From: Lentiprolixibacter aurantiacus
Lineage (GTDB): Bacteria > Bacteroidota > Bacteroidia > Flavobacteriales > Flavobacteriaceae
Assembly (NCBI RefSeq): GCF_026241225.1
Contig: NZ_JAPFQP010000003.1
Coordinates: 186,001-250,000 of the forward strand
Length of the DNA stretch: 64,000 nt
Direction of reading: 5' to 3'
Shown here piece after piece: positions 53,275 through 57,613 of this stretch. The number at the start of each line of letters is the position of its first letter. Positions within the stretch are counted from its first letter, which is position 1. The translations under genes were made by a program, and so were the position numbers. The notes below the pieces were generated by a model, which was not told where the DNA came from, searched no databases, and worked only from the letters and a program-made list of their open reading frames with translations.

Positions 53275-54843
53275 TTATTTAGCGACATTAACCGATCGGG
53301 TTTCCCGAATAACGGTAACCTTTACCTGTCCCGGATAAGTCATGTCTGTCTGTATTTTCTGAGATATTTCAAAAGACAACTGGGCGGCCTTCTCATCACT
53401 CACTTTTTCACTTTCTACGATAACCCGCAATTCCCGTCCAGCCTGTATGGCATAAGCTTTCTGCACCCCTCCAAAACCGAAGGCAATTTCTTCCAGGTCC
53501 TTCAATCGCTGAATGTAGCTGTCCAGCACCTGTCTCCTTGCCCCGGGTCTCGCACCACTGATAGCATCACAAACCTGTACAATTGGGGCGATCAGGGATT
53601 TCATATCGATCTCATCGTGGTGGGCTCCAATAGCGTTGCATACCTCGTCTTTTTCACCAAATTTTTCAGCCCACTGCATACCGAGGATAGCGTGCGGGGT
53701 TTCCACCTCAGCTTCCGTATTAGGTACTTTCCCGATATCATGCAAAAGACCGGCCCTTTTCGCCAGTTTGGGATTGACTCCTAATTCTGCAGCCATAATA
53801 CCACAAAGCTTCGCAACTTCCCTGGAGTGCTGCAGGAGATTTTGCCCATAGGAAGAACGGTATTTCATGCGCCCCACGGTTTTAATCAACTCCGGGTGCA
53901 ATCCATGGATACCCAGGTCGATCACCGTTCGTTTTCCTACTTCAACTATTTCCTGTTCAATTTGCTTCTCCGTTTTGCGCACCACTTCCTCTATCCGGGC
54001 CGGGTGGATACGCCCATCTGTCACCAGTTTGTGCAGGGATAAGCGGGCTACTTCTCTCCGAACGGAATCAAAACAGGAAAGAATGATCGCCTCCGGGGTG
54101 TCGTCTACAATGATCTCGACTCCAGTTGCCGATTCCAGGGCCCTGATATTGCGCCCTTCCCTGCCAATGATCCTACCTTTTACGTCATCCGATTCCAGGT
54201 TAAACACGGAAACACAATTCTCAATGGCCTCCTCTGTACCAACACGCTGAATGGTGTTAATTACGATTTTCTTGGCTTCCTGCTGGGCAGACATTTTTGC
54301 CTCTTCCAGCGTGCTTTGCATATAGGACATGGCATCTGCCTTGGCCTTTTCTTTCAATGATTCAAAAAGTTGTGCTTTGGCTTCTTCTGCCGAGAGGCCT
54401 GAAATTACCTCAAGTTGCTGAACCTGGCTTTGGTGTAGTTTCTCTAATTCGGCCTGTTTTTTTTCGTAGAAATCCTTTTTATGGTCTACTTCCTTAAGCT
54501 GTGATTCCAGCTTTTCATTGTTCCTTCTGGCTTTGGCCAGTTCGCTGCTGATTTGAGACTCCTTGTCTCTGGTCCTTTTTTCGGCCTCAGCAATCTTTTT
54601 GTCTTTATTGATGATGACCTTTTCGTGCTCGGCCTTCATCTCTAAAAACTTCTCCTTGGCCTGGAAGATCTTATCTTTTTTGATACTCTCACCTTCGATC
54701 TTGGCATTCTTAAGAATAGCACTGGCTTCCTTCTTAGCCTGGCCAATGGTCTTGGAAGCCTTTCCTTTTTCAAGGATCTTAGCGATGATAAATCCAAGTA
54801 TCAATCCACCTGCTGCGGCGATTGAAATTGTTGTTATGTCCAT
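53275..54843 (-). CDS. rny: Ribonuclease Y
   Basis: Membrane-anchored endoribonuclease that initiates mRNA decay. 522 residues: an N-terminal helix ([21 protein letters not shown]), a long coiled coil (about 35-190), a KH domain ([35 protein letters not shown]) and the HD domain with [18 protein letters not shown] and [14 protein letters not shown]. The C-terminal [14 protein letters not shown] completes the family. All motifs intact. Upstream are the 6S-like RNA and zapA. Confidence 0.97.
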
Positions 54844-54940
54844 TTGTCTTTACAGTTTAGCTGCCTAAAAGGCAATGCGTTTTCTGCGGTTACCTTTCAT
54901 CAGGCAAGCCACAGTAAATTGATCTTAAGGCAATTGATAC

Positions 54941-55113
54941 AAAAAAAGCCCACATTGATCAGAAGTTTTGTACAAACTCCAATAAACAGGTTTAGGGCTA
55001 ACAAACTGATCAAGGATCCTCTAACTGGGAGGCATGCTTTTACAATCTAAACTCACCCTTTTTAAAAGTAATAGTGTTGAGTTTGTCAAAAAATATTTAC
55101 CAATGTGGGCAGT
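54941..55113 (-). ncRNA. ssrS: 6S-Flavo-type small RNA (candidate ssrS)
   Basis: Seen: a perfect long-range 10-bp pairing, GCCCACATTG at the 5' end (55101-55110 on the plus strand reads CAATGTGGGC) and CAATGTGGGC at the 3' end (54948-54957), enclosing about 140 nt and followed by seven U (54941-54947). Inner pairings include AAACTCA/TGAGTTT and ACAAACTC/GAGTTTGT. A TA-ACA-TTTG element precedes it by about 10 nt. Known: 6S RNA lies beside zapA in many bacteria, and the 6S-Flavo family occurs in Flavobacteria. Inferred: it is a 6S RNA that binds RNA polymerase. Exact ends not determined. Confidence 0.75.
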
Positions 55114-55135
55114 AACAAATGTTATGTTAAAGAAC

Positions 55136-55432
55136 TTATTTTATGCTCAGTTTGGAATTCACCAGTTCATCCAATGCCCGCAGGCGAGCGTTTACTTCCC
55201 TGGTATCTTCCTGCTGATCAATGCCCCGTTGTTCCACTTTCGAGGCAAATTGCAAGGCACACATAGCCAGAACATCCTGCTTGTCGCGCACAGCGTAATT
55301 CTGTTCGAACTTCCTGGCCAGTTGCTCTATATTCTTGGCAGCCTTCCGCAACCCTTCTTCCTGAGCCGGATCAATGGTCAGGGGATATACGCGGTCTGCA
55401 ATGGATAGCTTTATTTTAAGCCTTTCTGCCAT
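55136..55432 (-). CDS. zapA: Cell division protein ZapA
   Basis: 98 residues. ZapA bundles FtsZ filaments. The N-terminal part (LKIKLSIADRVYPLTIDPAQEEGLRKAAKNIEQLARKF) has the ZapA fold and the C-terminal half is a coiled coil (about 50-95). It lies 16 bp downstream of a coiled-coil gene on the same strand, and the 6S-like RNA begins 23 bp after its stop. The arrangement zapA-6S is found in distant bacteria as well. Confidence 0.9.
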   Translation of the reverse strand: MAERLKIKLSIADRVYPLTIDPAQEEGLRKAAKNIEQLARKFEQNYAVRDKQDVLAMCALQFASKVEQRGIDQQEDTREVNARLRALDELVNSKLSIK

Positions 55433-55448
55433 ATTTCAGAGCGGTGTG

Positions 55449-55739
55449 CTAAACAGCGAGTTGTGATATGCAATGGTCCAACTCCCTGATCAGCGAATTT
55501 ATTTTGAGCTTTGCTTCTGTTTTATTAGTATCACTGCCCAGCATCGAATTTGCAAGCTTCAGGGAATCATACTTTTCTTCCCAGTCCTTGGCGGATTTAT
55601 TGGCTTCCACCAGCTTGTCTTTCAAGACTTGCAATTCCTGCTCCAGCTTAGAATTAGCCTGAGCCTGCAACTCAAGTTTATGCAGGACTTTGCTAATCTT
55701 GTTCTCGAGAGAATCAACGATTTCAACCAATTCGCTCAT
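55449..55739 (-). CDS. Small coiled-coil protein upstream of zapA
   Basis: 96 residues from the ATG at 55739 (a TTG at 55745 extends it by two codons). Almost entirely a charged coiled coil: ELVEIVDSLENKISKVLHKLELQAQANSKLEQELQVLKDKLVEANKSAKDWEEKYDSL. Sequence and position point to a cell-division helper like ZapB or a similar partner of ZapA, but no specific family is recognised. A good promoter lies at 55764-55794. Confidence 0.72.
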   Translation of the reverse strand: MSELVEIVDSLENKISKVLHKLELQAQANSKLEQELQVLKDKLVEANKSAKDWEEKYDSLKLANSMLGSDTNKTEAKLKINSLIRELDHCISQLAV

Positions 55740-55763
55740 TTGCAAATTTCAATGCCATTCCTA

Positions 55764-55794
55764 CAAATTTAAGATAGATCATAAGACCTCGCAA
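55764..55794 (-). promoter_or_regulatory. Promoter of the coiled-coil/zapA transcript
   Basis: On the minus strand TTG (55792-55794), 20-bp spacer, TAAATTTG (55764-55771), an exact -7 match, 24 bp before the start codon. Confidence 0.7.
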
Positions 55795-55921
55795 TTATTT
55801 TTGGAATTATTATTGAAGCATCACTTTAAGTGATTTTAGAATGCATGCGTGTAAAATTCAGCCCCCCCTTCTATTATGACAATTAGACCATATTAATTAA
55901 TTTCGCATTAAGCTTCCTACT

Positions 55922-57613
55922 ATGAGAGTACCGGCTATTGTACTATTCCTGCTATCTTTTCAACTGCTGCTTGGTCAGTCGCCATACCCCAAAGAGGTCT
56001 TCAGGCCACCACTGGACATACCCCTAATCCTGGCGGGAACCTTCGGTGAACTGCGTTCCAATCATTTTCATTCAGGGATCGATATTAAAACACAGCAGCG
56101 GCAGGGCCTCCCTGTTTATGCGATAGCAGACGGAACAGTAACCCGGATCAAGATTTCTCATTGGGGTTATGGCAAAGCCCTATATATTGCACATCCCAAC
56201 GGTTACACTTCGGTTTATGCACACTTGCAAAAATTTGCCCCTGAGATCGAACAGTTTGTAAAACAAGTACAGTACCAGAAACAATCTTATGAAGTTGAGA
56301 TCTTCCCTGATTTTGGCGAGATCAAAGTAAATAAAGACAGCATCGTGGCATATACGGGCAATACAGGAGGATCTTCAGGGCCACATTTGCATTTCGAAAT
56401 CCGGAACAGTGTAAATGAAAAACCTACAAATCCCCTTTTATATGGCCTGGAAGTCCGTGATGCCACCAACCCAAGCCTGGTAAGTCTGCACGCGTATCCA
56501 CTTTCCGAACAGGCACAAGTCAACCAGAGTAACGAGCGGGTACAGCTAAGCTACAGCAAGCAGGCAGACGGGACGTATCTCGCCGAGAAGGTAAATGCCC
56601 TGGGCACCATAGGTTTTGGCGTAAATGCTTTTGACCGCCAGGATCTTGCTGCCAATAAAAATGGTGTTTTTGCTATAGAACAAAGGGTTAACGGAAAGGT
56701 TTACACGGATTTTGACTTTGATTCTTTTTCCTTTTCCGAAACACGTTATATCAACACGCTGATCGATTACGCCTATTTTGGCAGGAACAAACAACGGATA
56801 CAACAGTGTTTTAAAGCTCCCGGAAACAAATTAAGCATCTATGAAACACTTTATAATGATGGCAAAATTGAGGTTAAAGAGGGGTTGACCTACAATGTGG
56901 AAATCGACATCAAAGACCTTGAAGGGAACACAATCAGGGTAATTATCCCTGTTGAAGGCGTCAGGGAGCCCCTGGTCAGGAAATCAGAGCAAAATCGCAC
57001 CCCGTATTTCCTGAAAAGCGACAAACCCAATAACTATGACCTGGGTATAGCCAGGGTATATTTCCCGGAGAATACTTTCTACAAGGACTTTTATCTAGAC
57101 CTGCAACCCGGCCAGGACACGGTAAGGATACATAACAATAGGGTTCCTGCGCATAAAAACTTTACCATAGCCTTTGATGCCTCAGGTTTTTCACCGGAGG
57201 AAAGACAAAATTTATTTATCGCTCATCTGGACAAGGATGGAAAGCCGCAGTATATGAACACCTACAAAAATGGCACTTCCTTCTCCACAAGGACCCGGAT
57301 ACTCGGCACTTATACTATGGCCCAGGATACGGTTCCCCCAAAGATCCGACCCAGAAATTTCAAGCCAAAACAATGGCTAACGAATTACCGTTACCTAAGC
57401 TTGCGGATCTCTGATGACCTAAGCGGGATCAATTCCTACAAAGCTACCCTGAACGGAGAATGGATCCTGATGGAATATGAACCTAAGACCAGCACCCTTA
57501 CCTACAATTTTGACGATGTGATACTCGACAAAAAGCAATGTCAGCTGGAAGTCGTTGTTACCGATAATGCCGGGAATTCGACTACCTTTAGCAGTAGTTT
57601 CTTCAGAAGATAA
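55922..57613 (+). CDS. M23 family peptidase (LytM-type peptidoglycan hydrolase)
   Basis: 563 residues with a signal peptide (MRVPAIVLFLLSFQLLLGQ). The LytM/M23 zinc site is complete: His50 and Asp54 (NHFHSGIDIK), His101 (VYAHLQKF) and His155/His157 (GGSSGPHLHFEIR). The catalytic domain covers about 40-165; the 400-residue C-terminal region is beta-rich and of unknown role. Periplasmic cross-bridge cleavage is the likely function. Its end overlaps the longest reading of the following receptor gene. Confidence 0.92.
   Translation: MRVPAIVLFLLSFQLLLGQSPYPKEVFRPPLDIPLILAGTFGELRSNHFHSGIDIKTQQRQGLPVYAIADGTVTRIKISHWGYGKALYIAHPNGYTSVYAHLQKFAPEIEQFVKQVQYQKQSYEVEIFPDFGEIKVNKDSIVAYTGNTGGSSGPHLHFEIRNSVNEKPTNPLLYGLEVRDATNPSLVSLHAYPLSEQAQVNQSNERVQLSYSKQADGTYLAEKVNALGTIGFGVNAFDRQDLAANKNGVFAIEQRVNGKVYTDFDFDSFSFSETRYINTLIDYAYFGRNKQRIQQCFKAPGNKLSIYETLYNDGKIEVKEGLTYNVEIDIKDLEGNTIRVIIPVEGVREPLVRKSEQNRTPYFLKSDKPNNYDLGIARVYFPENTFYKDFYLDLQPGQDTVRIHNNRVPAHKNFTIAFDASGFSPEERQNLFIAHLDKDGKPQYMNTYKNGTSFSTRTRILGTYTMAQDTVPPKIRPRNFKPKQWLTNYRYLSLRISDDLSGINSYKATLNGEWILMEYEPKTSTLTYNFDDVILDKKQCQLEVVVTDNAGNSTTFSSSFFRR

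Follow-up and report, generated by a model that had tools for sequence, protein, structure and literature searches.

The question raised by this locus was whether the 292-bp gap between zapA and rny, which belongs to the 64,000-nucleotide stretch of DNA analysed here (the window), holds a gene and, if so, of which kind. An initial annotation had claimed a 6S-Flavo-like RNA there, at 54941-55113, and had called it the window's only RNA gene. When the window was scanned with the Rfam covariance models, the minus strand of 55113-54941 gave a match to RF01685 (6S-Flavo) of 104.3 bits (E 2.5e-17), well over the gathering score of 85 bits that delimits the family. Both claims were thereby borne out, as this was the only Rfam match at gathering cut-offs in the window; it was also the single RF01685 copy in the 3.13-Mb genome. 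The 6S-Flavo family was found by comparative genomics and is listed for the Bacteroidetes (Weinberg 2010, PMC2864571), and the RNA is like it in both sequence and structure along the full 108 positions of the model. The RF01685 model stops inside the rod, however, and does not reach P1, the U-run or the outer portion of P2 in this RNA.

The ends were approached with other models. With lax settings on 801 bases, the general 6S model (6S/SsrS, RF00013) could be aligned end to end (model 1-187) on 54943-55114, with 21.9 bits (E 0.032) against a cut-off of 46.4, and Bacteroidales-1 (RF01693, for which the name 6S-Bacteroidales RNA has been suggested) gave a weak end-to-end match at 54942-55104, with 17.2 bits (E 2) against a cut-off of 60. 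These matches, although below their gathering scores, agree with the RNA ends that had been proposed. R1, a full-length model that has this locus (L001) among its 30 training rows, returned exactly 55113-54941. We consider it almost certain that the gap holds the genome's one 6S RNA gene, of the 6S-Flavo type, and that its product acts by the mechanism of the 6S class. The family match, the fold, the covariation, the single copy and the conserved neighbourhood are the directly observed points for this identity, and they make the gene an ordinary, well-supported member of a known family. The parts of the locus are collected in Table 1.

Table 1 Parts of the zapA-6S-rny locus, given as positions in the window
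Feature	Position	Strand	Evidence
Predicted 6S RNA (6S-Flavo), ~173 nt	54941..55113	-	RF01685 104.3 bits; R1 166.8 bits (locus in training set); RF00013 below cut-off; ends predicted
Stretch covered by RF01685 (model 1-108)	54974..55082	-	Rfam match, 55082-54974
Outer stem P1, 5' arm GCCCACAUUG	55101..55110	-	Perfect pairing; 99.1% paired, 5/11 compensated
Outer stem P1, 3' arm CAAUGUGGGC	54948..54957	-	Perfect pairing; covariation
Seven-U run after P1, terminator-like	54941..54947	-	Six T invariant in 30-row alignment
Inner stem P2, 5' arm	55079..55089	-	Alignment A1, columns 25-35
Inner stem P2, 3' arm	54968..54979	-	Alignment A1, columns 176-188
Central bubble, 5' strand	55060..55078	-	Invariant AACUCAAC (55083-55076) runs into bubble; candidate pRNA start template
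Central bubble, 3' strand	54980..54993	-	Alignment and consensus structure
boxA-like GTTCTTTAACA, directly after zapA stop codon	55125..55135	-	GTTC[AT]T near stop in 79/80 relatives
zapA, cell division protein, stop codon included	55136..55432	-	PF05164 67.4 bits, cut-off 23.8
98-aa coiled-coil-like ORF upstream of zapA	55449..55745	-	No family above cut-off
TAAATTTG, sigmaA -7 box consensus at operon start	55764..55771	-	Only TAnnTTTG on minus strand of 54700-55950
rny, RNase Y, downstream neighbour	53275..54843	-	TIGR03319 635.4 bits; PF12072

The fold was then examined, starting from the longest perfect long-range pairing of the gap, that of GCCCACATTG (54948-54957, +) with CAATGTGGGC (55101-55110, +). 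This 10-bp pairing and the U-run after its 3' arm (seven T at 54947-54941 on the minus strand) were both found where the initial annotation had put them. The 10-bp arm alone is weak evidence, because 45 of 1000 dinucleotide shuffles equal it. For the whole of 54920-55120 the fold has z = -2.67 and 0/200 shuffles are as stable, the values for the opposite strand being z = -1.27 and 22/200. For a comparative view we took the best 30 of the 50 RF01685 matches in the phylum, the window's locus included, and cut the full RNA out of all 30. The RNAalifold consensus of these sequences has 38 pairs, with 98.1% of the cells paired and 20 pairs showing compensatory (double) changes in the MAFFT alignment. 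The covariation score was 0.383, compared with 0.181 in shuffled alignments (0/500 reached 0.383) and at most 0.072 with the partner slid, a control that leans in favour of the structure since this was derived from the same alignment; the count of further pair types was within chance in these 30 sequences (41/500 shuffles). In the outer stem P1 (helix 1, 11 pairs) 99.1% of the cells are paired and 5/11 pairs are compensated, and six T after it are invariant. Since pairing and compensatory changes are conserved across the 30 sequences, the outer stem is real.

In the consensus model the RNA is a rod made of the outer stem P1, the inner stem P2 and a large central bubble, followed by three shorter helices. 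The 38 pairs, with their covariation, give the long rod of the 6S class, with its closing stem, large central bubble and terminal arm. The predicted length is 173 nt, and the stable transcripts of the class have roughly 160-200 nt. The alternative helices that had been read in the interior fared less well: AAACUC is indeed able to pair with a nearby GAGUUU instead of forming the rod, but in the computed ensemble this local alternative (three pairs tested) has a probability of 0.00, while the P2 core has a mean pair probability of 0.99. R1 also gave a weak match on the opposite strand of the RNA (26.4 bits, E 0.00011), which a near-palindromic rod would be expected to give, and three further matches in the window that are short (34-42 nt, best E 0.0076).

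By analogy with the 6S family, binding of polymerase and release through a pRNA are the most likely mode of action. The RNA would mimic an open promoter and occupy the housekeeping sigmaA RNA polymerase, which would be released when the 5' bubble strand templates a short pRNA. The putative template, AACUCAAC at the junction of P2 and bubble (columns 31-38), is invariant in 30/30 sequences, and the pRNA would start GUUGAGUUU. Within the phylum, 6S RNA has been reported together with pRNAs in Bacteroides thetaiotaomicron (PMC7366714), and Flavobacterium psychrophilum is reported to express 6S RNA (PMC9723704). Two additional details of the mechanism were considered. A release hairpin formed by refolding of the 3' strand on pRNA synthesis was predicted (probability > 0.5 with the 5' strand masked) in 11/30 sequences and had a probability of 0.00 in the window's own; the free-state value above 0.5 for L024 is an artefact, the wrong AAAC having been chosen. 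A mimic of the sigmaA -7 box (TAnnTTTG) on the 3' bubble strand was suggested by UAAACYUG, which comes close in many family sequences, and was dropped as Flavobacterium-like rows have AAAACUUG and those of families f2 and f3 differ, a comparison made by reading and with no statistic.

The position of the gene is conserved. The RNA is flanked by an upstream zapA and a downstream rny in all 30 family loci. A second set was assembled with zapA as the sole criterion (the 80 best of 572 loci, many of them uncultured records), and here an R1 match follows zapA directly in 80/80, two being cut by the contig end, with rny downstream in 78/80. The two sets overlap by at least two genomes (L364 = G130 and L353 = G234), and the nearest named zapA relatives among the matches listed are Flavobacteriaceae, including Eudoraea and Maribacter. 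In the window rny starts about 100 nt beyond the U-run, on the same strand as the RNA. The zapA neighbour, which the initial annotation took for the usual place of a 6S gene, matches the order zapA-ssrS described for beta- and gammaproteobacteria in PMC7641849, the one paper retrieved by a literature search combining 6S RNA, Bacteroidetes and zapA. The likeness to 6S/SsrS extends to the end-to-end alignment and to the upstream gene; the downstream gene differs, being a 5-formyl-THF cyclo-ligase or EVE gene in the account of PMC7641849 and rny here. The 98-aa ORF upstream of zapA gave no family match above cut-off, and its place suggests a ZapB-like role.

How the RNA is transcribed was addressed through the flavobacterial sigmaA -7 box, TAnnTTTG (PMC9723704). 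Between 54700 and 55950 the minus strand has one such box, TAAATTTG, which lies at 55771-55764 and closely precedes the 98-aa ORF, and no consensus box adjoins the RNA. The operon-start box is present in 30/30 family loci, between -639 and -662 relative to the RNA, with a second TAnnTTTG in L018 (-633), L020 (-58) and L024 (-498). Among the best 80 of 572 zapA loci it was found in 78/78 with enough sequence, and 76/80 lack any TAnnTTTG between the start of zapA and the RNA. All eight f2 loci have the box near -620 of the zapA end and none after zapA; f3 and the distant families show no clear pattern, and a box lies inside the gap of three loci of f25 and one of f48.

Directly after zapA stands GTTCTTTAACA. 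It resembles GTTC elements in the 16S leaders of relatives and may correspond to the boxA antitermination element of rRNA leaders; here it precedes a 6S RNA, and in many relatives the form is GTTCTTTTA, which has an additional T. Of the 80 relatives (best 80 of 572), 79 have GTTC[AT]T no more than 20 nt from the zapA stop, where 0.61 would be expected and 0/80 random 20-mers have it. The longer form GTTC[ATG]T[AT][AG] follows zapA in 26/30 family loci (0.21 expected), 5/10 of f3, 4/5 of f33 and 2/3 of f28, in none of the loci from f17 (13), f25 (6), f35 (4) and f2 (8), and in 33/80 of the second set, many members of which have GTTCTTTTA. The rRNA leader of this genome is absent from the assembly and the 16S comparison is one with the leaders of relatives: 16/20 have GTTC[ATG]T within 300 nt, a count without shuffle control. 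At its fifth base the element has A or G in all ten f1 leaders read and mostly T in the 6S leader. The exact 11-mer GTTCTTTAACA occurs three times in the genome, against four times for a reversed control, a number that is not rare; it is only the places, not the copy number, that are striking.

We read the GTTC element as a putative boxA, presumably with the NusB-S10 role, and with GTTCTTTAACA read in this way, read-through from the operon promoter would follow. Transcription would start upstream of the 98-aa ORF and zapA, cross zapA and pass GTTCTTTAACA, which would shield the untranslated RNA from Rho; the transcript would end at P1 and the U-run, and the 6S RNA would then be cut out in the fashion of an rRNA. 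Such read-through and processing are a possibility suggested by motifs, the promoter part being based on the consensus only, and a weaker or different promoter next to the RNA may exist. A joint treatment of boxA and 6S RNA was not found in the titles or abstract openings of the literature searched, in which two papers contain both terms.

Alternatively, the RNA may have its own promoter just upstream, with GTTCTTT being part of it and not a boxA, and to this we give a serious chance that falls short of even. In each of the 26 matching family loci a distance of 19 to 26 nt separates the element from the RNA downstream. Shortly before its RNA the window has AACATTTG, which differs from TAnnTTTG at one position, the fifth base of the element is for the most part different in the f1 16S leaders and the 6S leader, and ssrS of E. 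coli has a proximal promoter. The own promoter has to contend with the lack of any TAnnTTTG between zapA and the RNA in 30/30 family loci, that of L020 at -58 lying inside zapA, and with the occurrence of the element in the 16S leaders counted above. In the five matching f3 loci, moreover, the distance from the zapA stop to the element is a steady 1 to 3 nt, and that from the element to the RNA ranges from 28 to 105 nt. Since the spacing varies in this way, GTTCTTT as a -33 promoter box was made the second choice and kept as a rival to the boxA reading.

Some observations were made along with the leader analysis. The second GTTCTTTAACA of the genome (L272, G000:C4:448116-448126, +) ends four bases before the tmRNA gene, and a matching element was found in the tmRNA leaders of 8/30 genomes, hence not generally; one relative has a second tmRNA-like match above cut-off (G103:C1:772761-773172, 49.3 bits). 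The third (L270, G000:C2:300036-300046, +) lies about 260 nt upstream of a small-protein ORF whose C-terminal part is cold-shock-domain-like by eye. In six loci (L157, L160, L166 and L168 of f33; L162 and L172 of f28) the leader GTTCTTTG and the 3' arm of P2 (GGTTCTT) could both pair with the 5' arm of P2, which is AAGAAC or AGAACC there, making a leader switch possible, as judged by eye.

The next question was how far the zapA-6S order extends, and a sample of 395 genomes drawn from the phylum Bacteroidota was used for this. RF01685 had matches at E <= 0.001 in 50/395 genomes, above cut-off in 20/395; R1 had matches in 51/395, and RF00013 in 55/395, with 0 above cut-off and no match in the window's own family. 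In the eight best RF00013 matches the RNA is flanked by zapA and rny in 8/8. The rny gene was found in 312 of these genomes, and the stretch upstream of it was taken for 100 listed non-family rows, with the exclusion of rows listed below G152 and of every row that was not listed. zapA lies upstream on the same strand in 95/100 of these stretches, within 520 nt of rny in 91 and 668-1458 nt away in four, and was not found in the upstream region of the other five. The gap measures 172-520 nt in f2, f3, f14, f17, f25-f28, f33, f35, f47 and f48, and 31-129 nt, too short for the RNA, in f5-f12 and f21; f4 is mixed.

When 38 of the 100 stretches were scanned with Rfam at E <= 1, two (both of f2) matched RF01685 and four (L169, L196, L197 and L198) matched RF00013 below its cut-off; the other 32 had no match. 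R1 finds the RNA in 8/8 f2 gaps and, at the right place and strand, in 6/10 of f3 (E 8.1e-7, 0.0025 and four at 0.022 to 0.32); outside its own family it reaches with any strength only f2, f3 and two f8 genomes. Tested with 20 shuffles each, the long gaps mostly fold better than shuffles (z -2.7 to -5.4 in f2 and -2.0 to -5.7 in f3), some hardly so (L197 -0.75, L157 -1.18, L159 -1.28, L163 -1.49); three f4 gaps gave z +0.3 to -1.8.

A second model, R2, was built from 15 distant RNAs of f17 and f35, cut out by hand and with no place information. It matched 75/296 phylum genomes, 12 of the 75 being its training genomes. By the printed coordinates rny lies within about 0.5 kb downstream of the match in 71/75 (24/24 of those with a listed rny row and 47/51 of the others), and in 59/63 outside the training set; in the remaining 4/75 the RNA follows zapA and no rny was found. 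zapA is upstream in 72/72 examined (51/51 and 21/21), G008, G176 and G275 not being among these.

R2 gave no match at the window's RNA locus, and because of this the link between R1 and R2 is carried by f3, by the anatomy and place that the RNAs have in common, and by the weak RF00013 matches. The RNAs in the gaps of the distant families could then be unrelated to 6S-Flavo and share its place alone, as the short reach of R1 beyond its own family might also indicate. We think this improbable: many sequences show, by eye, the same order of parts (outer stem, mostly U-rich tail, P2 arm ending in AAC, bubble), f3 forms a bridge that R1 matches with a best E of 8.1e-7, and RF00013 matches the RNAs on both sides, the window's and the distant ones, below its cut-off.

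In some genomes RNAs of 6S type were also seen at other places. Among 40 genomes (38 of f4-f12 and two of f21, most of them without room in the gap) RF01693 was above cut-off in five, and none of these five matches (L199-L203; f11 and f12) has zapA or rny within 1.5 kb, in contrast to the window's RNA, which lies between both. The two f8 matches of R1 (L267 and L268) are likewise distant from the two genes. zapA and rny are still adjacent to each other in these f11, f12 and f8 genomes.

That the RNA is a cis-acting leader of rny (an attenuator or riboswitch) and not a trans-acting 6S RNA is very unlikely, for although rny begins so soon after the U-run on the same strand and lies downstream in 71/75 R2 genomes, the family matched is 6S-Flavo, the RF01693 RNA of the five f11 and f12 genomes stands apart from a zapA-rny pair that is still adjacent, and four R2 genomes have the RNA after zapA with no rny found.

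The wider reading combines three statements: that in the Flavobacteriaceae 6S RNA is made like rRNA, from an operon promoter, through a boxA and by processing; that the zapA-6S linkage is old and phylum-wide; and that many 6S genes are unannotated as the Rfam cut-offs miss them. We offer this combination tentatively and regard it as rather unlikely in its entirety, and have lowered our confidence in it slightly because A or G stands at the fifth base in the f1 16S leaders.

What this analysis adds to a gene of a known family is the view across the phylum, with zapA-adjacent 6S genes in many distant relatives that tend to escape the standard search models. Specialists may find most of interest in the conserved order zapA-6S(-rny) and in the possible rRNA-like leader. 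Adjacency to zapA offers a simple route to the annotation of 6S RNA in the Bacteroidota, and the locus raises a testable question, that of how 6S RNA is transcribed in this phylum.
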